Shown here piece after piece: positions 1,517-63,131 of a DNA stretch of 63,394 nucleotides. A program made the position numbers and the translations under genes. Below the pieces are notes generated by a model. The model was not told the origin of the DNA. It did not search any database and was given only the letters and a program-made list of their open reading frames with translations. The number at the start of each line of letters is the position of its first letter. The first letter of the stretch is position 1. This stretch comes from a virus, in IMG/VR virus record IMGVR_UViG_3300017771_000005, positions 1-63,394 of that record; one strand, given 5' to 3'.

Positions 1517-1556
1517 TGTTTGTTGGATCGCTTGTGAATAGTATAAGGGATGCCTA

Positions 1557-1574: not shown

Positions 1575-1595
1575 TTGTGACAGTTATTCAAGTGG

Positions 1596-3728
1596 TCATG
1601 CGACAAGTTGAATAAAATCAGACAAGATTTTTTTATTTAGTTTTTTGTTCTTCAAACTCTTGATGAATGCATTCTTGATTTGACTCTTAGTAGCATTATC
1701 TTGAACTACAAACTCATCGTCCTGAGATAGAGCAGTTGAAGAGAGACCAAAGTATGCATCATATCCACTACTCTTGATATTCATAGTTTTAGTCTTCTTC
1801 CAGACAGACATGAGTTTATCATACTCATCACCAAAGTACCCAGTATACTTGCGGATGAATCCACCACTATCACGAGGAGCAAGAACTCGAATACCAATCA
1901 AGTTCATCTGTGGGAAGTTGTCTTTCAGATTGCGGAGAAGAATGTCTGTATTGTCACCTAGTCCAGTATTCATATTGTAATTTTTACCGGTCTTACGATC
2001 ACGAAAGACAATATTATCCTGCGACTCTGCACCACGAAGACCAAGAGATGGTTCCTCCTCCCAGTGACGATAGAACATAGTATGGTAGCGCATTCCATAT
2101 CCCTCACCATCGGTAAGGATTACACACTGAACCTTCTCAACATTGTTGTCTTTTTTGAATTGAGGAATAATCTGGTACAAAGCGAGAATTGCTTCATTCA
2201 AAGGAGTTCCAGAAAGAGAAAGTCCCACAGGAATATCATGATGACTATAATTTGATTTAGTATATCGAGAAGCAACTCTCCAAATGTTAATCATTTGCTT
2301 TTCCAACTGACGAGTCGATACCTTGCTCGTAAACAGATTCATCAAAGACACATGTTCTTGGATATAGATATTGCCTTCTTTTTTTTCGTAGGAGAGTTGA
2401 TACATATTCTCCTTAGGGTAATCAGCGGTAAACGCATACACCTCAAAAGGAATACCAACCTTCTTACAGAACCACATCAAATTGTACAATTGCTTCATGG
2501 TGTCCAATAGGACATTACCCATTGAACCAGACCAATCCAAAACAAAAACTAGACCATGGTTTTTTCCTTCAGGAAGAATAGTCACCTTCTTAAACAGATC
2601 CTCGTTGTACTTGTAAGTGTGTAGTTTGGAACAATCCAGGACTCCAGTACGAGAGGTAGTTGCACGAGAATATGCGGTAGCAGACTTCTTGCATTCAAAT
2701 TCCTTGACCATGTAGTTTACTTCTACCTGTGCATCTTTCTTAAACTTTATGTAATCCAGATCACCATTAGCAAAGATGTCATATTCCATATCTGGATACA
2801 ATTCATCAATATGAGACTGTCGCTCTTCCCAATACTGTTCACAACCCTCATGGATTTTTTGATTAGGAATAATCAGACGATCTAAGAACATCTTTGGACG
2901 TTCAATGTAAATATTCTCAACAGCGTTGGGATTGTTGAGTTTTTTCAGTGCTTCTTCTAGGGACTCAGTTGTGTGGGATCCTGCTGGTGATGGTTGAGGT
3001 TGAACCTCCTCCTCATCTTCATCATCCTCAATTTGGTCTATAGAAGATGCAGCACCACCATACGATTCACCAGATTCTGGTTCCGTAGATTCATCTTCAT
3101 CACTCTCTCCACTTCCTTGAGATTGATCAGCATCAGGACTGCCATTACTCGGCATAGGAACCTCATTCGTCTGCTCCTCCACTTCATTCATACACTCGGT
3201 ATAAACGATCTCAGAGACCCTCAGAACGTCCTCAAAGGTCTCACAATCAGAGATCTGACGGAGAATAGTCTTCTCATGATTAGTAAATTCAATGGAAACA
3301 AATGCACCAATCTTGAAATGTAGATTAATACGATCAGCGAAACTCATTCCATTGACATCTATGTCCTTGATGGCAAAGAAGTCCATGTCAGAAAGTTCAT
3401 GATATGCCTTGTAGAAATCTTTACTAAGACCACCATATCTCTGCTTAACCTTCCTCTCAATGCGGACATCCTCTATGATGTTCACAATGACTGGAGTGGT
3501 ATTATATTGACCTAACCAGTTCATATTGGGAGTGTACAGGGCATGTCCAACCTCATGTCCCACCAGCATGTCATAGACAGCGTTACTCGCATTTTCCCAC
3601 ATGGGAAGAATAAGGACGCGAGTATGGACATTGAACTGTGCAGTCTCTACCTTCTTATGCTCAACAGCGATGTCCTCGGTGGCAAGCAGACGGGCGAGAG
3701 TGCCTTTGATTTCAAACTTGACAGACAT
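1596..3728 (-). CDS. cobT: VWA-domain protein with HExxH zincin motif (CobT-like)
   Basis: The open frame reaches 3827, but I take ATG 3728 (MSVKFEIKG, 710 aa), because the longer start would lie far inside the preceding small gene. An N-terminal HEVGH motif at about residues 58-62, followed by a downstream IIEDVRIER segment, looks like a metallopeptidase site with a possible third Glu ligand. A long acidic Ser/Glu/Asp linker follows, then a von Willebrand factor A domain with a full MIDAS motif DWSGSMG near residue 397. Cyanophage annotations call it CobT or peptidase. It is coupled to the downstream AAA+ ATPase, with which it probably forms a chaperone- or chelatase-like complex. The substrate is unknown. 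Confidence 0.82.
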   Translation of the reverse strand: MSVKFEIKGTLARLLATEDIAVEHKKVETAQFNVHTRVLILPMWENASNAVYDMLVGHEVGHALYTPNMNWLGQYNTTPVIVNIIEDVRIERKVKQRYGGLSKDFYKAYHELSDMDFFAIKDIDVNGMSFADRINLHFKIGAFVSIEFTNHEKTILRQISDCETFEDVLRVSEIVYTECMNEVEEQTNEVPMPSNGSPDADQSQGSGESDEDESTEPESGESYGGAASSIDQIEDDEDEEEVQPQPSPAGSHTTESLEEALKKLNNPNAVENIYIERPKMFLDRLIIPNQKIHEGCEQYWEERQSHIDELYPDMEYDIFANGDLDYIKFKKDAQVEVNYMVKEFECKKSATAYSRATTSRTGVLDCSKLHTYKYNEDLFKKVTILPEGKNHGLVFVLDWSGSMGNVLLDTMKQLYNLMWFCKKVGIPFEVYAFTADYPKENMYQLSYEKKEGNIYIQEHVSLMNLFTSKVSTRQLEKQMINIWRVASRYTKSNYSHHDIPVGLSLSGTPLNEAILALYQIIPQFKKDNNVEKVQCVILTDGEGYGMRYHTMFYRHWEEEPSLGLRGAESQDNIVFRDRKTGKNYNMNTGLGDNTDILLRNLKDNFPQMNLIGIRVLAPRDSGGFIRKYTGYFGDEYDKLMSVWKKTKTMNIKSSGYDAYFGLSSTALSQDDEFVVQDNATKSQIKNAFIKSLKNKKLNKKILSDFIQLVA

Positions 3729-3897
3729 TGGTTTGTTCCGAATGACCATATAATACAAAAGAACCCCGCCTTTGGGGCGAGGTCTTGTGACGCTTCTTGA
3801 ATTGGCGCAGTGCTTCACGTCGGGCACGCAGCGCCTGTGGTTTGAGTTTTCTCTTCTGGTCTTTACCAGAATTGTGTTGCCAGTTTGGAGTGGTCAT
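3712..3897 (-). CDS. Small basic protein
   Basis: This 61-aa protein is rich in Lys, Arg and Gln and starts MTTPNWQHNSGKDQ. Its ATG overlaps the gp46 stop as ATGA, and its end overlaps the start of the VWA gene by 17 nt. That tight packing supports a real translated gene. Predicted pI is very high, and the middle (ALRARREALRQFKKR) could form an amphipathic basic helix, which is compatible with nucleic-acid binding. I do not recognise a family. Confidence 0.6.
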   Translation of the reverse strand: MTTPNWQHNSGKDQKRKLKPQALRARREALRQFKKRHKTSPQRRGSFVLYGHSEQTNVCQV

Positions 3898-5875: not shown

Positions 5876-6919
5876 TTACAGTATTTCGCACGCTTCTTGA
5901 TAGATTTCCTTGACCATGGATTGAACTTTTGACTTATCCATTCCAAAATCAGATTCTTGTATGTATCTATTCAGGATGGAAAGTGTATCTTCAGATTCTA
6001 AAGTTTCTTCATCTTCTATATCATCAATATCAACAAAATTGAAGTTTTCTACAATTTTAATCTCTTCTACGTCAGAAGCATATAACTTATCTAAGAACTT
6101 ATCAAACTGCTTAGCATTGGTTTTTTTCTTGACAATAACTTTTACAATCTTATTCTTATACTTTGTAGTATCAAATAATTTGTAATTTGTATCTTCATAG
6201 TAGATATTAAAGAATAGACGGTGAGGATTATCTATGTGTGTAATCTCTAGAGTTTCAGTATCAAATATTGTAAATCCACGAGGATCATCAACATCAGACC
6301 AGAACATTTCGTATGGATTTCCTAGATAAAATATCCGCCCATCAGTCGATCTAGTGTGATAGTGACCGGAGAAGACATGGGAGAACTTCTCAAATAGTTT
6401 GCCGTCCAAACCATGCTCCATGATGATTTGTCGATTAACTCTAAATCCTGAGAGTTCAAGGTGCCCCATCGCGACCTTGCAAGTTGTCTTTTTAATACTT
6501 TTGAAAGTTTCATCTTGATTATCCTGATTAATCCAAGGTAAGAACAAGATGTCTAATCCACCAATATTGACTTCTTTTGCTTCTCCGTAAGTTTTGATAT
6601 TGTTATACGTTTGAAGTAGTAAGTCTGGTGAGTTTATGTCATTCGTGTTCTTGTAATATGTATCATGATTACCCACAATCATATGAACATCATAAGATTT
6701 CAAACGATCAAATACAACTCTCTTTGACCACTCAAGACTTTGATAATCAATTGATTTTCTACTATCAAAGGTATCTCCCATGTGAATGACAGTAGTGATA
6801 CCCTCCTTTTCTAAGGTTGGGAAAAATACATCATCATAAAAAAGTTCGAAGTAATCATGAATAAATTTTGAACCCTTTCTTGCCCCATAATGTGTATCAG
6901 TAATGATCGCAACCTTCAT
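5876..6919 (-). CDS. 47: gp47 recombination endonuclease subunit (Mre11/SbcD-like)
   Basis: This 347-aa calcineurin-like phosphoesterase shows the Mre11 metal-binding motifs in order: DTHYG at 8-12, HMGDTFD near 46-52, GNHD near 82-85 and SGHYHTR near 186. It is the nuclease partner of gp46. The gene overlaps gp55 by 4 nt (ATGA), so sigma factor and nuclease are translationally coupled. Size and motifs match T4 gp47. Confidence 0.96.
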   Translation of the reverse strand: MKVAIITDTHYGARKGSKFIHDYFELFYDDVFFPTLEKEGITTVIHMGDTFDSRKSIDYQSLEWSKRVVFDRLKSYDVHMIVGNHDTYYKNTNDINSPDLLLQTYNNIKTYGEAKEVNIGGLDILFLPWINQDNQDETFKSIKKTTCKVAMGHLELSGFRVNRQIIMEHGLDGKLFEKFSHVFSGHYHTRSTDGRIFYLGNPYEMFWSDVDDPRGFTIFDTETLEITHIDNPHRLFFNIYYEDTNYKLFDTTKYKNKIVKVIVKKKTNAKQFDKFLDKLYASDVEEIKIVENFNFVDIDDIEDEETLESEDTLSILNRYIQESDFGMDKSKVQSMVKEIYQEACEIL

Positions 6920-25458: not shown

Positions 25459-27123
25459 TTATTTGATTACTCTATTGTTTCTAAATCTTGGGTATTTTGG
25501 ACCAGAGACTTCAGAATGCCTATTTTTATCTAGAACAGAGGGGTATGTTGACCCATGTTCTGGCCTCTTCTTCATGATGAAAAGATACCTGTTATTACTA
25601 TTACTTCCAAGAGCCTCATAACCACTGTGATTTTCAGTTCCCGTAGTTCCAACCTCAGATAAGGAAGATTCCTTCAAATATTGAAGTGCATCTGATTGTC
25701 TAAGTCTAGGTTCTTGCTCTGCGAGACAAGCAATAACACCACAAACCTGTGGACTTGCCATACTAGTCCCATTAATCGATGCTATGTAATAAGATGCACT
25801 CCTAGAATCTACAACTACAGATCCATAACTAGCAGCATCAGCACTAGTTTTATCGTAAACAGCAGAAATGATATCACTACCAGGTGCCCAAATATCTACT
25901 CTCCCACCCCAGTTACTGAAATTAGATTTGTATTCAGAAACTTTAGAACCAATCGATCCTACACAGATAACATTATCTGCTGAACCTGGAGTTGAACCTC
26001 TTGAGTGATATCTTGTAGATGAAGTATAATAAGAGTTATTATAATCACTACCACTAGAAGTATCACAATTCCAATAACTGTTTCCTGCGGATGAAATAAC
26101 AATAACACCATCATTGATAGCATCTTGAATATCAGCATCTACAGCAGCAACTCTAGCAGGAACTCTATAAAGATAGGTGTTAGTGGGAACTGGGACACCA
26201 TTGTCCTCCAATATCGCTTTCTTTTCTGAATCAGTGCCACTTAAAGAAGTAGTTGTTCCTCTATAAGTAACCCTAGTAATACTTGAAAGGCTGTCACTAT
26301 TATCGCCATAACTATATCCCCAACTATGATTAGTGATTGTTGGGTTTCTTCTGCCAGTTGTTGGATTTCTATCTTTATTTTTATGGAAATGTCTTAAGTA
26401 ATCCCATAACTTTTCATCCCAATCAGTAACACCAGATAATGTGTCACTAAACGCCATATTATAAATGTTGGCATTTCTTGCCCAACCTTGAGTATTACCA
26501 CATGCAGTTCCTGCTACATGAGTTCCGTGGTTACTGTTTGGTGATGCACCAGATGTACTATAAGTATAAGTGTCGTTGGTTGAATATCCTAATGTTGAAC
26601 TATACCTAAACCAATTAAATTGATTAACTCTACTACCGCCAGTACCATCAGTATTCTTAGCAAATTCTGGATGATCTGGATTAATATGCGAATCTACTAT
26701 AACAACATCAACATATTTTCCAGACGATGTTGTCATAATTTTTTGTGTGGTCTCAGTAGTTGAATCACTACCCCAGTTAGATACAGAATCTCCCTTAATG
26801 ACTCTATATAACCCCCAGTTCTTATCAGTGGATTCTAATGTTCCTGTGGTCTTTTCAAAATCTCCTGCTTGTTCCCACATTTCAGTTGGAACAAGTCCAC
26901 GATCTCTTGCTGGACGTTCACAAGCAATTACTCTAGAGTCGTTTCTAACTTGCCCTGCTTCCTCTTCAGTAAGCATGTAATGAGTATTACGACTAATCTG
27001 CCTCCGATGAACTAATTCAACCTCTCTGTCTGGAATATAGAGGTTCCCACCAGGAGTTTCTAGATCATCATAAAGACTTTGAAGATCTTCGTAAGATGTA
27101 CAAGTTACAATATATTCGTTCAT
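25459..27123 (-). CDS. Subtilisin-like serine protease (S8)
   Basis: This 554-aa subtilase has a complete catalytic triad: Asp144 in VVIVDSH, His202 in NHGTHVAGT and Ser454 in NGTSMASPQ. SSAGN carries the oxyanion Asn. The first about 70 residues (MNEYIVTCTS...THYMLTEEEAGQVRNDSRV) resemble an I9-type inhibitor prodomain. There is no signal peptide, so it acts in the infected cell or in the virion. It sits between the collagen-like fibre and tail-completion genes. The start overlaps the fibre stop as TGATG. Processing of fibre or virion proteins is an inference. Confidence 0.92.
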   Translation of the reverse strand: MNEYIVTCTSYEDLQSLYDDLETPGGNLYIPDREVELVHRRQISRNTHYMLTEEEAGQVRNDSRVIACERPARDRGLVPTEMWEQAGDFEKTTGTLESTDKNWGLYRVIKGDSVSNWGSDSTTETTQKIMTTSSGKYVDVVIVDSHINPDHPEFAKNTDGTGGSRVNQFNWFRYSSTLGYSTNDTYTYSTSGASPNSNHGTHVAGTACGNTQGWARNANIYNMAFSDTLSGVTDWDEKLWDYLRHFHKNKDRNPTTGRRNPTITNHSWGYSYGDNSDSLSSITRVTYRGTTTSLSGTDSEKKAILEDNGVPVPTNTYLYRVPARVAAVDADIQDAINDGVIVISSAGNSYWNCDTSSGSDYNNSYYTSSTRYHSRGSTPGSADNVICVGSIGSKVSEYKSNFSNWGGRVDIWAPGSDIISAVYDKTSADAASYGSVVVDSRSASYYIASINGTSMASPQVCGVIACLAEQEPRLRQSDALQYLKESSLSEVGTTGTENHSGYEALGSNSNNRYLFIMKKRPEHGSTYPSVLDKNRHSEVSGPKYPRFRNNRVIK

Positions 27124-59196: not shown

Positions 59197-59280
59197 GGCG
59201 CTTCGCGCCGCTTGGGAAACCGGCACATACACTGTGCCAGCGCCCGAACTGTCACAGGGGACGGACTGTGATCTGTCCCC
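59197..59280. other. Cluster of hairpins and one palindrome copy
   Basis: Three short stems lie in 84 bp: GGCGC/GCGCC (59197-59209), GGCACA/TGTGCC (59222-59238) and GGGGAC/GTCCCC (59257-59280). The 24-bp palindrome copy at 59233-59256 overlaps the second stem. The stretch is visibly richer in G+C than the neighbouring genes. It lies after the 59296-59532 gene on the minus strand, so it could be its 3' UTR or a separate structured RNA. Confidence 0.5.
59233..59256. repeat. 24-bp palindromic element, copy 1
   Basis: Arms TGTGCCA and TGTCACA enclose 10 nt ending in AAC. The G-run hairpin GGGGAC/GTCCCC begins at the next base. Family consensus is TGTGMCA-N10-TGKCACA. Confidence 0.75.
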
Positions 59281-59295
59281 TATAAGCATTGCTGA

Positions 59296-59532
59296 TCAGT
59301 ATCCGATCCCTTTTGGATTGAACTTATCAGGAAATGCCTGATAGAGTCGGAACCGGTTGTTGAGGTCTGCTTTGTTCAATGCAGCGAATAAACTCTGATT
59401 GAATCCACCCTCGTTTCCTTCTGCCATGGAGTTCAGATGCTTCCAGATGACTGGATCACCTTCGCGAACGCGAAAGTCCCAATACTCATAAGAAGGAAAT
59501 TCGGTGTGCTGAGTCAGTGAGCGTGTTGTCAT
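59296..59532 (-). CDS. Small hypothetical accessory protein
   Basis: This 78-aa soluble protein (MTTRSLTQHTEFPSYEYWDF...) is polar and aromatic with no motif that I recognise. Its leader AAGGGACACCCCCATGACA is shared exactly with the next upstream gene at 59605-59865, which suggests a common translation or regulatory signal. Confidence 0.65.
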   Translation of the reverse strand: MTTRSLTQHTEFPSYEYWDFRVREGDPVIWKHLNSMAEGNEGGFNQSLFAALNKADLNNRFRLYQAFPDKFNPKGIGY

Positions 59533-59573
59533 GGGGGTGTCCCTTGAACTTGAATAAAGTCTACCATAAGAAA

Positions 59574-59589
59574 GGGAGGTTTCCCTCCC
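59574..59589 (-). terminator. Terminator-like hairpin after 59605 gene
   Basis: A 6-bp stem GGGAGG/CCTCCC with a 4-nt loop is followed on the minus strand by TTTCTT, 15 nt after the stop of the 86-aa gene. Confidence 0.65.
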
Positions 59590-59604
59590 ATAATCTTAAG
59601 GAAT

Positions 59605-59865
59605 TTAGTAGGTCTGGCAGACCCACTTATAGGTCATCCCTGACTTCCATTCCTCAGGAGTGATGCAAACCCCATAAGAATGATGGGACCAGAACCGATC
59701 TGAGAGGCATTGTGTCCACTGCTGTGGGGTGAATGTCTCCTGATACTCTTGAGGGACTTCAGGCATTCCGACTAATTGGTCAGAAGCGCGAAACCTTTCA
59801 GCGTCAAGATCAGCAGATGAGAGGTCAGGGGAACAAGGAAGATGTTCTGTTGCTGGAAGTGTCAT
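59605..59865 (-). CDS. Small hypothetical accessory protein
   Basis: This 86-aa acidic protein starts MTLPATEHLPCSPDLSSADL and ends with an aromatic segment (WSHHSYGVCITPEEWKSGMTYKWVCQTY). No domain is recognised. It shares the exact 19-nt leader with the downstream gene and has its own 3' hairpin, so it looks monocistronic. Confidence 0.65.
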   Translation of the reverse strand: MTLPATEHLPCSPDLSSADLDAERFRASDQLVGMPEVPQEYQETFTPQQWTQCLSDRFWSHHSYGVCITPEEWKSGMTYKWVCQTY

Positions 59866-59907
59866 GGGGGTGTCCCTTTGATTGACTCTTTTATTCTACA
59901 GGATGGT

Positions 59908-59926
59908 GGGGTCTTATGGTGACCCC
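59908..59926 (-). other. G/C-run hairpin after 59941 gene
   Basis: A 6-bp stem GGGGTC/GACCCC with a 7-nt loop lies 15 nt after the stop of the 59941-60351 gene. No U-tract follows, so termination is uncertain. Confidence 0.45.
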
Positions 59927-59940
59927 AAACCTTAAGACAT

Positions 59941-60351
59941 TCAATAGAAGTTAGTGACAATTTCCTCTCCGGTCATAATCGACGTTGGGGATCCATTAAT
60001 CCATTCCATAGGTTCAAAAGATCCACAGACAGACCAATTCTCCCACTCTATGAAATGTTCTAATGCGAATTGTGCAAACTTCATTGCACCTAAGTTACTA
60101 AAGAAGTCCCCCATAAAGTAATGAAGTACCCCATGATCACCCTGAGAGTTGAATTGTTCAACCGTACAGAATAATGCGCCTAGAGTTAGGATCGTATCAG
60201 ATACCTGAAAAGATATCTTAAAAGTAGTTTCACCTACTGCATGAATCGTTATTGTTTGAGAATAAACTCCTCCCAATTCTGGTGGTTTATTCCATGGTGT
60301 GGAATGATTCCACTCTAGAAGGTAGCGATTAGTCTTAGATGATGTTGTCAT
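59941..60351 (-). CDS. Hypothetical accessory protein
   Basis: I choose ATG 60351 (MTTSSKTNRYLLEWN, 136 aa), because it overlaps the preceding stop as TAATG; the frame is open 11 codons further. The protein has beta-like runs (QTITIHAVGETTFKISFQVS) and a helix rich in Phe (FFSNLGAMKFAQFALEHFIEW). No family is recognised. It is the third gene of a coupled trio with 60351-60548 and 60545-60868. Confidence 0.65.
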   Translation of the reverse strand: MTTSSKTNRYLLEWNHSTPWNKPPELGGVYSQTITIHAVGETTFKISFQVSDTILTLGALFCTVEQFNSQGDHGVLHYFMGDFFSNLGAMKFAQFALEHFIEWENWSVCGSFEPMEWINGSPTSIMTGEEIVTNFY

Positions 60352-60548
60352 TAGTTTACTTTGATGAATGTTTTGTGGACACAAATAGTGGTATCACCCA
60401 TAAAGTGATCACCAGTCACTGCAACTTGGTAAGTTGGATTCTCAAGGCAACGTAACTTTGCTTCCTTATTATAAAGAAAGTGTACGGGAACAAAAGCAAG
60501 GGAGGTTAACAATACTCCCGCAAGGAATGGAAAGTTAAAGTTCTTCAT
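60351..60548 (-). CDS. Small single-pass membrane or exported protein
   Basis: This 65-aa protein has an N-terminal hydrophobic segment (FPFLAGVLLTSLAFVPVHFLY, split here as residues 6-26) after MKNFN, consistent with a signal anchor. The rest is polar with two Cys (RCLEN, TICVH), which could pair in the periplasm. Its start overlaps the 107-aa gene by 4 nt (ATGA). Confidence 0.65.
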   Translation of the reverse strand: MKNFNFPFLAGVLLTSLAFVPVHFLYNKEAKLRCLENPTYQVAVTGDHFMGDTTICVHKTFIKVN

Positions 60549-60868
60549 GCTCTCTTGAAAAGGAGGTAGGTTGATGACTTTTTAATGGTAACATCTCCGG
60601 AATCCTGATGATACTTTCGGAGGGCATCCAATACTTTCTTTTTTTGTTCAAACTCTGCCGGATATTGATACTCATTTCGAGTAGCAATTATAACTGTCCC
60701 GTATGGAGTTTCCTCTTTATCTGAGCGTTTCATTAACAACAACTCCATAATCTGTTGCCTTTTGTGTCTTTCTTTATTTTCTAGTGATTCTCGTTCGTGG
60801 ATTAGGTCAGTGAGTTCGGACGCTCGCGACCAAATTTCACTGTTTTTTGGTTTTGGTGTTGTTGTCAT
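60545..60868 (-). CDS. Hypothetical helical protein
   Basis: This 107-aa, charged protein starts MTTTPKPKNSEIWSRASEL, with a long helix (TDLIHERESLENKERHKRQQIMELLLMKRSDKE) and a C-terminal beta/helix part. It may form a coiled coil. No family is recognised. It begins a three-gene coupled unit. The leader contains competing hairpins (see 60894-60920). Confidence 0.65.
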   Translation of the reverse strand: MTTTPKPKNSEIWSRASELTDLIHERESLENKERHKRQQIMELLLMKRSDKEETPYGTVIIATRNEYQYPAEFEQKKKVLDALRKYHQDSGDVTIKKSSTYLLFKRA

Positions 60869-60893
60869 TGTGGGGTGACCACTATGGGTTAAA

Positions 60894-60920
60894 AGGAATT
60901 TCGGATTCCTACGGGAATCC
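60894..60920 (-). other. Two mutually exclusive hairpins in 5' leader
   Basis: AGGAAT (60894-60899) can pair with ATTCCT (60905-60910). Alternatively GGATTCC (60903-60909) can pair with GGAATCC (60914-60920). The two stems overlap and cannot form together. They lie 26-52 nt upstream of the 60545-60868 start, a layout compatible with attenuation. Confidence 0.4.
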
Positions 60921-61301
60921 TACAGGATGGGATTGGCAGGATCAAACATAATGTGACAGTCTGCAAAGTGTCCCTTTTTTGTTGCTTCTTATGTGTGGGA
61001 ACGAGGTTCGATCTGTTACAATACGTAGGAAATTCAATGGAGGTCTCAAACTCTTCAAAACATCAGCACAGTCACAGACCGTAACGTCATCTGTTAAGAT
61101 ATGCTCACGTTTCATTGACAGACACGCTGCCCCAGAAAAGTCCCGAATGATCTGCATTAGGTGGAATTGCTTACCCCCACATCATGCCCCAGATCACCGA
61201 TGCTGCCAACCCTTCAAATCCGAACAAATTCTAAAATCATTTCATTTCCTTATGTAACAATCCCTTGCCAAACTTGCCCACTTATGATACATCGCTTCGA
61301 C

Positions 61302-61325
61302 TGTGCCAATCCGGAAACTGGCACA
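61302..61325. repeat. 24-bp palindromic element, copy 2
   Basis: Arms TGTGCCA and TGGCACA form a perfect 7-bp inverted repeat around 10 nt. It lies in the non-coding region and lacks an adjacent G-run hairpin. Confidence 0.75.
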
Positions 61326-61478
61326 CTGACGGTTGACAAATCGTCCACAGTCGCCATCATGAATGATAAGCGATCTGAATGGCGTCTAGAAGTGTCCCTG
61401 ATGGATCTCTAGAGAGTCTTAGGTAAGGTTTAAGTCATCTAGATCCTCGCGGATCTTATAAGCATTTACAAGACGCGA

Positions 61479-61502
61479 TGTGCCAGTTTAACAGGTGGCA
61501 CA
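61479..61502. repeat. 24-bp palindromic element, copy 3
   Basis: Perfect 7-bp arms TGTGCCA/TGGCACA around 10 nt. It directly follows a TCGCG...CGCGA pair that encloses a TTATAAGCATT sequence also present (as CTATAAGCATT) beside copy 1. Confidence 0.75.
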
Positions 61503-61508
61503 CAATAT

Positions 61509-61536
61509 TTGAGAATCTAAAAAAGTGTGCTAGGAT
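61509..61536 (+). promoter_or_regulatory. Plus-strand sigma-70-like promoter candidate
   Basis: TTGAGA (61509-61514), a 16-nt spacer and TAGGAT (61531-61536) lie just before the repeat field. No plus-strand gene follows, so an untranslated RNA through the repeats, or a chance match, are the options. Confidence 0.35.
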
Positions 61537-61747
61537 AAAGGGTTATATTAATATGTGATTGCTATATGTGAATCTAGTAGAGTATATGTGTGATATTAAA
61601 TGTGATCTAGATGTGTGATCTAGATTGATATTAATATGTGTGATCTAGTCTAGTTTATGTGTGATGTGTGATATTATCTCGACAAGATTGTGTGATATTA
61701 TCTCGTCGAGTTCCTATGATGTTAACTCGACGAGACTGTGCTAGGAT
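61526..61747. repeat. Iteron-like repeat field with 11-bp inverted repeat
   Basis: Two direct copies of TGTGCTAGGAT (61526-61536, 61737-61747) flank an AT-rich field of TGTGAT-based repeats. These include TGTGATCTAGA units and two copies of TGTGTGATATTATCTCG near 61667 and 61690. The right end holds a perfect 11-bp inverted repeat TCTCGTCGAGT (61701-61711) / ACTCGACGAGA (61725-61735) with a 13-nt spacer. A regulator-binding site, a replication origin or a structured RNA would all fit. Confidence 0.65.
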
Positions 61748-61762
61748 GGGGGGTTGCCCCCC
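61748..61762 (-). other. G6/C6 hairpin after gp88-like gene
   Basis: GGGGGG-TTG-CCCCCC lies 5 nt after the stop of the 61768-62511 gene. No U-tract follows on the minus strand. Confidence 0.5.
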
Positions 61763-61767
61763 CTCCC

Positions 61768-62511
61768 TTAGTTTGAGTATCCTGCAAACTGTTTCGCCTT
61801 GCGACGGTCGCGGATCGCTGCTCCCCAGATGCTCCCCTTAGGTTGAGTACCATGGACTAGCAGGGCGAAGGGTCCATCCTTTAGGCAGTGTGAATCATCG
61901 TGATCCACTTCTAATCCCTCAGAGATTGCTTCTTCTTCAAACTTAAACACCTTAGAGTATCTGGGGAAGTAATTACGATCAATTAAGTGATCCCACTTAC
62001 CACCATATGATGCAGTCAGATAGAAGTTTGAAGGAAGATCAATAATATCCGCATCCAAATCATCAGTAAGAAAGAGATGCAGAGACTTGCTGTAACAGTA
62101 GAACTTAAGGTCGGGAAGTAACTTAGCGCACTCAATCCACCCTTGAAGATATTCTTTGGAGAAGAAATCGCCACTCTCATGAATCCTAACTTTGGTAGTG
62201 TGTTTAGTTCTTTGTGCCAGAATTGCATCATGTAGATTCAACGCCAGGTCATCATTGTGGATTGAATCAATCACTTGAGCAAAGTTTTCTGCTCGCATTT
62301 TGAACACTGCATCGTATTGAACTTCAGAGGATGCAGCAAAGCAACGGAACTTAGTCTCAGGACCGTCCACAATCTTGCGTTTCCCATCTGCCTGCTCAGT
62401 CGCAAATGCCTTGCAATGTAAAGCACCGGGGCAGGTCTTGCCAGCGGGAAGGTTGAAGATCAGGGTGTCTTTCGCCAGTTTGGCGTTGCCTTTGGAGAAT
62501 CGGAGGGTCAT
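61768..62511 (-). CDS. Gene product 88-like protein
   Basis: This 247-aa protein has the features of the phage 'gene product 88' family: an N-terminal GKTCPGALHCKAFA cysteine motif and a central VRIHESGDFFSKEYLQGWIE segment followed by LKFYCYSKSL. The family occurs in mycobacteriophages and cyanophages, and its biochemical role is unknown. The leader (AAAGGAACACAACC before ATG) resembles the shared leader of the 59-kb genes. It is monocistronic, with a terminator before it and a G6/C6 hairpin after it. Confidence 0.8.
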   Translation of the reverse strand: MTLRFSKGNAKLAKDTLIFNLPAGKTCPGALHCKAFATEQADGKRKIVDGPETKFRCFAASSEVQYDAVFKMRAENFAQVIDSIHNDDLALNLHDAILAQRTKHTTKVRIHESGDFFSKEYLQGWIECAKLLPDLKFYCYSKSLHLFLTDDLDADIIDLPSNFYLTASYGGKWDHLIDRNYFPRYSKVFKFEEEAISEGLEVDHDDSHCLKDGPFALLVHGTQPKGSIWGAAIRDRRKAKQFAGYSN

Positions 62512-62548
62512 GGTTGTGTTCCTTTGACTCTTATAAGATACAGAAAAA

Positions 62549-62572
62549 CAGGGGAGAAGTAAATCCCCCCTG
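62549..62572 (-). terminator. Intrinsic terminator after wHTH-like gene
   Basis: On the minus strand CAGGGG, 12 nt and CCCCTG are followed by TTTTT. The stem shares its last bases with palindrome copy 4 (62571-62594), so only one of the two structures can form fully. Confidence 0.7.
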
Positions 62573-62594
62573 TGACAGTTCTATGATTGGCAGG
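62571..62594. repeat. 24-bp palindromic element, copy 4
   Basis: TGTGACAGTT, 7 nt and TGGCAGGA in this orientation: the left arm and the AGTT core match the family, the right arm is degenerate. It covers the stop codon of the 62581-62859 gene and abuts its terminator. Confidence 0.65.
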
Positions 62595-62859
62595 AGATCG
62601 GAAGCACCTTAAAGATAAAGGCAGCAACGCGATCACGCTTACGAATCTGCTGGATCTCCCATAGGTTACGCTTGCCAGTCTTCTTATGCTTTGACGCATG
62701 TAGAATTTGCTCCCTCTCCATATCTGCCATTAAGGCATGAATGGTTCCCTTGTGTCTCTGAGGATCCATACCCATCATCTTTACGATTTCAGAGCAGGTT
62801 GCTGGACCCTTATTGATTAGGGTGGATCGGATTGAAGCACGAATGATCGAAGAAATCAT
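62581..62859 (-). CDS. Probable winged-helix DNA-binding protein
   Basis: This 92-aa protein has a helix-turn-helix-like layout: SIIRASIRSTLINKGPATCS, EIVKMMGMDPQRHKGTIHAL (recognition helix candidate) and a beta-hairpin HASKHKKTGKRNLWEI. It is basic. A transcriptional regulator is the simplest reading, and the palindromic elements nearby are possible targets. That link is speculative. Confidence 0.7.
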   Translation of the reverse strand: MISSIIRASIRSTLINKGPATCSEIVKMMGMDPQRHKGTIHALMADMEREQILHASKHKKTGKRNLWEIQQIRKRDRVAAFIFKVLPISCQS

Positions 62860-62908
62860 GATTTCTATTGGTTGTGGAGGGTTGTCCCCCGTTTCCTAAT
62901 GATACACC

Positions 62909-63049
62909 CTAGGATGCAGGTTGACCAATCTCTTCAGATTGATTTAACCATTCAAACATCGCTTCTAGGGTTGCATCATCCAGGTCTATCTTACCATGGG
63001 TGTCAAGTTCTTCAATCTGTTGCTTGGTTAGGAAGAGATCGCGGAGCAT
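62909..63049 (-). CDS. Small acidic protein (46 aa)
   Basis: Minus-strand reading from ATG 63049 gives 46 residues starting MLRDLFLTKQQIEELDTHGK and ending SEEIGQPAS, then TAG. A GTG six codons earlier (63067) is an alternative start. It is acidic and helical with phage-like composition and fills the gap between two accepted genes. No family is known to me. Confidence 0.6.
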   Translation of the reverse strand: MLRDLFLTKQQIEELDTHGKIDLDDATLEAMFEWLNQSEEIGQPAS

Positions 63050-63088
63050 GTCAGAGGTGTTCGGCACTCATTAACAATACATCAGAAA

Positions 63089-63105
63089 GGGGGGATTCTC
63101 CCCCC
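63089..63105 (-). terminator. Weak terminator after 63133 gene
   Basis: GGGGGG/CCCCCC with a 5-nt loop is followed on the minus strand by TTTCT. It lies 3 nt beyond palindrome copy 5. Confidence 0.55.
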
Positions 63106-63107
63106 AG

Positions 63108-63131
63108 TGTGCCACTTCCTAAACTGTCACA
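63108..63131. repeat. 24-bp palindromic element, copy 5
   Basis: Arms TGTGCCA and TGTCACA enclose 10 nt ending in AAC, 2 nt after the stop of the 63133-63363 gene and next to a G6/C6 hairpin. Confidence 0.75.

Follow-up and report, generated by a model that had tools for sequence, protein, structure and literature searches.

What does a short palindrome that recurs in the accessory region of a viral genome do, and which protein reads it? The question arises from positions 1 to 63,394 of the IMG/VR virus record IMGVR_UViG_3300017771_000005 (hereafter the window, 63,394 nt), which carries several copies of the 24-bp palindrome TGTGMCA-N10-TGKCACA. We found that the palindrome is a directed operator that precedes sigma70-type -10 boxes at a constant spacing. 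With a probability of roughly 0.7, we consider it to be the captured operator of a host GntR activator that drives phage early genes; GntR binding to the palindrome, and activation instead of repression, are what we infer.

Searching the window with this pattern yielded four exact copies (59233-59256, 61302-61325, 61479-61502 and 63108-63131), whereas 300 order-1 simulations of the window contained a single exact match in total, corresponding to 0.003 expected per window. Four additional copies, at 62571, 60952, 3786 and 1576, are degenerate. The first-pass annotation had listed five copies, four of which are exact, while the fifth (62571-62594) has two mismatches, located in the promoter-distal arm. 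The degenerate copy it had suspected at 1576 proved real (1576-1599, TGTGACAGTTATTCAAGTGGTCAT, matrix score 10.1), and the copies at 60952-60975 and 3786-3809, with two mismatches each, extend its list. As it had also stated, none of the window sites falls within the virion genes. Neither of the two outcomes that it had named as refuting was seen, as the exact copies far exceed the chance count and the arms are kept in relatives. Allowing three mismatches gave 17 matches in the window compared to 9.2 expected; because this excess is modest, only the tight pattern is informative. No convincing tRNA or Rfam RNA was detected at the window sites.

The promoter architecture was determined from 727 deduplicated cyanophage sites. 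In 270 cases, an exact TATAAT, TATACT or TATTAT begins downstream of the site at an offset of 29 or 30 nt, compared to about 1.6 cases per position elsewhere, and the distance from the -10 box to the first ATG peaks at 21-26 nt. Downstream of the directed site, a weak TTGAC appears at 8-12 nt, followed by the TATAAT box, and conservation is higher in the promoter-proximal half of the palindrome than in the distal one. Within 70 nt, 74% of these promoters are followed by an ATG frame of 35 or more codons, compared to 26% of random positions. A -10 box (at most two mismatches) lies at 28-31 nt for 72 of the 74 matrix sites in phage isolates, although this contrast is overstated, as the best of four offsets on two sides was taken. 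The fixed spacing between site and -10 box and the weak -35 are those of a sigma70-type activator-dependent promoter. When positional 5-mers preceding TATAAT-ATG pairs were counted de novo, with no motif supplied, TGGCACA emerged at -36/-37 from the -10 box in ACG-2014f and S-SSM7, and TTGACA at -23 in S-SM2 and P-TIM68, both of which lack the element. A second -10 peak one helical turn further was not reproduced in the larger set of 727 sites and was discarded. We propose that TGTGMCASTT-N4-AASTGKCACA would be the operator of an activator for a class of sigma70-type phage promoters, centered about 54 bp upstream of the start point and 29-30 bp before TATAAT, where it would replace a weak or missing -35. 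It would drive many small early genes, as well as some tRNA and cobS-like genes, in T4-like and unrelated cyanophages.

Early expression of the downstream genes was observed in the Microcystis siphophage Mic1 only, by comparing sites with a published time course. Scanning 58-84 kb of the Mic1 genome revealed 46 sites from gp58 to just beyond gp73, none within a coding sequence, and the nearest copy lies 67-79 nt before ten start codons (gp59, 62, 64, 66 and 68-73). With the exception of gp61 and gp67, gp49-gp73 belong to the early phase; gp49 and gp69-gp73 peak at 0.5 h, and gp69-gp73 are immediate-early (PMC11237433). Genes peaking at 0.5 h should rely on a factor already present in the cell.

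Among 121 picocyanobacterial genomes, the exact pattern occurs in eight, always as one copy and never more, and the operator is rare elsewhere in the host genome. A scan of 257 Gb of cellular genomes gave 44 matching stretches, about a third of them cyanobacterial, and five of these represent the same locus in five cyanobacteria, namely the promoter of Cyano-1 RNA (RF01701), where the palindrome lies about 29-30 nt before the -10 box. We take Cyano-1 to be Yfr2. A shared GGAAACA loop links the two (PMC1242208). In a Cyano-1 set for which five of the source loci were fetched by the pattern itself and the others came from an RF01701 search, 18 of 31 non-picocyanobacterial promoters score above zero with the phage-derived matrix, all 18 at -67 to -70 from the RNA start, while random windows reach a score of zero in 3.6% of cases. 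Half-sites occur upstream of Cyano-1 at 17 of 46 loci, compared to 15 of 1100 windows.

According to a 2019 paper (PMC6778093), PMM1637, a GntR regulator shared by all cyanobacteria, binds CGRE1-containing yfr2 promoters and mediates Yfr2 induction; the same paper finds CGRE1 nowhere else in MED4. The CGRE1 of picocyanobacterial yfr2 promoters (Lambrecht 2018, as cited in PMC6778093) resembles the phage element in that the same half-site, AACTGKCACA, was found here upstream of Cyano-1/Yfr2 promoters, and non-picocyanobacterial Cyano-1 promoters share the phage arrangement and spacing too. The phages differ in carrying up to dozens of copies, before protein and tRNA genes. Because the same element precedes yfr2 (Cyano-1) at the same spacing across cyanobacteria, the activator would most likely be host-encoded, with the conserved GntR regulator (PMM1637 in Prochlorococcus) as the leading candidate.

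At a different host locus, nine picocyanobacterial genomes of one group conserve the palindrome as TGTGACAnnTGAAnTAGTGGCACA; in those for which the 16S gene was covered, it lies about 430-450 bp upstream of 16S and points toward it. The other 16S loci compared, where enough upstream sequence was available, showed no such palindrome. A role in host rRNA promoters was rejected, as the site is real, at about 440 bp upstream of 16S, but confined to this group of nine genomes.

In the window, the sites and their surrounding boxes and genes are arranged as follows:

63108-63131, minus strand: exact operator palindrome, its promoter reading on the minus strand
63080-63107, minus strand: spacer with a terminator-like GGGGGG/CCCCCC stem replacing the -35 box
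63074-63079, minus strand: -10-like box TATTGT, 28 nt after the 63108 site, two mismatches to TATAAT
62571-62594, minus strand: degenerate operator, promoter-proximal half AACTGTCACA intact
62541-62570, minus strand: nested, terminator-like stem with TTTTT between the 62571 operator and its -10 box
62535-62540, minus strand: -10 box TATCTT, 30 nt after the 62571 site, followed by the ATG of 61768-62511
61768-62511, minus strand: GP88-family gene (PF17338), predicted target of the 62571 promoter
61479-61502, plus strand: exact operator directed to the plus strand, with TAGGAT at 28 nt (61531-61536)
61302-61325, plus strand: exact operator, with TTGACA at 61333-61338 and a weak -10
60952-60975, minus strand: degenerate operator, promoter-proximal half GACTGTCACA
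60917-60922, minus strand: -10-like box TAGGAT, 29 nt after the 60952 site; the next gene is 60545-60868
59233-59256, no strand assigned: exact operator palindrome
3786-3809, minus strand: degenerate operator upstream of the peptidase/CobT-like gene
3750-3755, minus strand: -10 box TATTAT, 30 nt after the 3786 site, with an in-frame ATG at 3728
1576-1599, minus strand: degenerate operator between the peptidase/CobT-like stop and cobS
1540-1545, minus strand: -10 box TATACT, 30 nt after the 1576 site, with the cobS ATG at 1516

The sites at 1576 (cobS), 3786 (peptidase/CobT-like), 60952, 62571 (GP88-family) and 63108 all face the gene that follows and are themselves followed, at 28-30 nt, by a -10-like box; where a site is degenerate, its promoter-proximal half is better preserved than its distal half. 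The earlier remark that copies lie beside gene stops was correct but incomplete, as the sites are located in the gaps from a stop codon to the following start and form part of the next gene's promoter. Palindrome sites also occur between peptidase and cobS in S-CRM01 and ahead of gp179 in S-SRM01. The peptidase/CobT-like open reading frame (1596-3827) was called from GTG 3827; judging from the -10 box at 3750-3755 and an ATG in frame at 3728, the gene may start later. Downstream of the 61479 site, no gene was recognized on the plus strand. The stretch that follows it (61540-61745) is non-coding and contains many TGTGTGATCTAG and TCTCGACGAG/TCTCGTCGAG repeats; similar TCTCGTCGAG repeats flank a palindrome in S-SRM01 (about 26070-26190).

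A stricter 20-base form of the palindrome matched at least 120 IMG/VR stretches, many with several copies. Long contigs carry 1-19 copies each, typically grouped in one sub-region, while the reversed control pattern gave none. At a matrix score of at least 15, the isolates S-CRM01, S-SRM01 and S-SKS1 contain 19, 16 and 9 sites, respectively, while S-SM2 and P-TIM68 have none clearly above background at this score. With one mismatch allowed, the pattern matched 24 times in ACG-2014f, 11 times each in P-SSM2 and S-SSM7, 6 times in S-PM2 and 4 times in syn9, and not at all in S-B05 and S-SCSM1. Contigs related to Mic1 and to S-CBWM1 also carry the palindrome, which is common to Kyanoviridae, Llyrvirus, Mic1-like and S-CBWM1-like phages; its presence in unrelated phages argues for a host factor.

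Several further arrangements were noted. A second box, TAAATGAGCAC / GTGCTCATTTA, adjoins the palindrome in a subset of phages (four loci, and S-SKS1 at 6063), and several S-CRM01 sites (9442, 12594, 16498 and 31102) stand before TTATGCTAGC-type promoters ahead of tRNA genes. Four Nostocales contigs carry TGTGACAGTTGAnGAAGTGTCACA within or adjoining a conserved frame, beside iteron-like GGGAACAGAATTTCCCA repeats. The metagenome-assembled genome SSF56 (Pyrinomonadaceae, Acidobacteriota) contains at least six matching palindromes, perhaps an unrelated regulon.

The position of sites directly after stop codons would also suit an RNA-level element, be it a processing site or a component of an intrinsic terminator at the ends of genes, and one S-CRM01 copy has indeed been deposited as a Rho-independent terminator. 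Moreover, stems rich in G+C with T runs often follow the palindrome: 112 of 448 spacers between site and -10 box contain a G+C stem of at least 5 bp, whereas shuffled sequences gave 18 ± 4 and the opposite side of the site gave 15, and 25 of these stems are followed by a T-rich tract (0.6 expected). The 62571 promoter exemplifies this order, with the site, a GGGG/CCCC stem, TTTTT and TATCTT preceding the GP88-family ATG. Such stems and T tracts indicate that an upstream gene's terminator can sit where the -35 would otherwise be. However, the stem is a separate element between palindrome and -10 box, and the palindrome itself has no T run. Its arms do not pair by compensatory change either: among 363 sites, positions 5/20 form 202 Watson-Crick pairs compared to 214 expected, and positions 8/17 are anti-paired (85 pairs compared to 161 expected). 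The latter rarely pair because a G...G or C...C form is favored, an asymmetry that gives the palindrome a direction. As the sites also scale with -10 boxes and start codons, we regard an RNA-level role as highly improbable, and the RNA processing signals considered at first are not supported. The same holds for a dispersed repeat, given the unrelated flanks, the fixed spacing to the -10 box and the occurrence in unrelated phages. Of the initial proposals, regulator sites are the one that the promoter architecture supports.

If the element is a regulator site, its activator could instead be encoded by the phages and have spread with early-gene regions, the likeness to Yfr2 promoters reflecting its origin or a means of attacking yfr2. 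Such an origin would fit the uneven presence among phages of one host species group (S-SKS1 and S-PM2 with, S-SCSM1 without the element) and the single exact copy, at most, in picocyanobacterial genomes. Yet no protein family tracks the element. The small winged helix-turn-helix-like protein at 62581-62859, previously put forward as the binder, is an unlikely candidate for the general regulator, as a convincing homologue was found at only one of the loci compared and none in S-CRM01, S-SRM01 and S-SKS1, which carry 9-19 sites. The AbrB-like gp185 was dismissed because the carriers of the element that it predicted were contradicted by S-PM2, syn9, S-SSM7 and P-SSM4, and the small helix-turn-helix protein g79 because it is also present in S-SM2, which has no element. 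Unbiased co-occurrence searches, including one of five bearing against two lacking genomes, revealed no plausible regulator and yielded only 2-oxoglutarate-oxygenase, HNH, tail-fibre-like, small or antisense frames. Unrelated phages share the element, and it serves the Mic1 immediate-early genes at 0.5 h, when no phage protein should yet have accumulated unless it is packaged, which leaves a phage-encoded activator unlikely. We see even less reason to favor an operator for repression or timed shut-off of early genes. Mic1 early genes do fall quickly, and GntR proteins often repress, but the site is located upstream of the -35 position and does not cover the core promoter, a weak -35 coincides exactly with the presence of the site, and PMM1637 is said to mediate Yfr2 induction.

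Several observations weigh against a captured host GntR operator. No downstream gene can be clearly assigned to three of the eight sites in the window (59233, 61302 and 61479), and the element is absent from some T4-like cyanophages with similar hosts (S-B05, S-SCSM1, S-SM2 and P-TIM68). Picocyanobacterial yfr2 promoters mostly carry the half-site in an everted form, AACTGTCACWGTGACAGTT, and not in the phage arrangement. Furthermore, the equation of the phage element with CGRE1 is presumptive.

The element also differs from known activator sites. In T4 middle promoters (MotA box plus -10), a regulator box likewise substitutes for the -35; the MotA box is centered near -30 and is not palindromic, whereas the phage element is a 24-bp palindrome centered near -54. 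CRP/SyCRP1 class I sites are palindromic activator sites upstream of the -35 with similar TGTGA-like arms. The CRP class I site, TGTGA-N6-TCACA, has its center at -61.5, whereas here TGTGMCA arms stand 10 apart around a center near -54, and the TGTGM and KCACA arms are 14 apart, unlike the CRP-type spacing. A literature search of a limited library returned no published palindrome of this kind in cyanophages. A 2016 study by Doron reportedly describes a "novel regulatory element" of early genes in cyanophage Syn9. In syn9 we found five matrix sites, four with a -10 box at 28-29 nt, and the reported element is probably the palindrome studied here. If so, the early-promoter role would already be known for syn9, which need not apply to the host counterpart, to the breadth or to the regulator; Doron 2016 or Lambrecht 2018 may already describe part of our findings.

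Beyond the captured GntR operator itself, we tentatively put forward, at slightly short of an even bet, a wider scenario in which one host operator was captured by unrelated lytic cyanophages (T4-like, Mic1-like and S-CBWM1-like) and spread to tens of early promoters, wiring infection to the Yfr2 regulator and thereby to high light and nitrogen stress. In some of these promoters, operator and -10 box would bracket an intrinsic terminator that replaces the -35. If true, the phage copies, numbering dozens, would draw the regulator off yfr2 by titration. The sequence rule allows early promoters to be predicted across many cyanophages, among them many for which metagenomes are the sole source. It also accounts for numerous palindromes between genes, of which at least one had been deposited as a terminator. 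Early phage transcription would be connected with a conserved host regulator that has been named and is coupled to light and nitrogen status, so that the way in which lytic cyanophages take over transcription, and the reason why infection depends on the physiology of the host, become directly testable.

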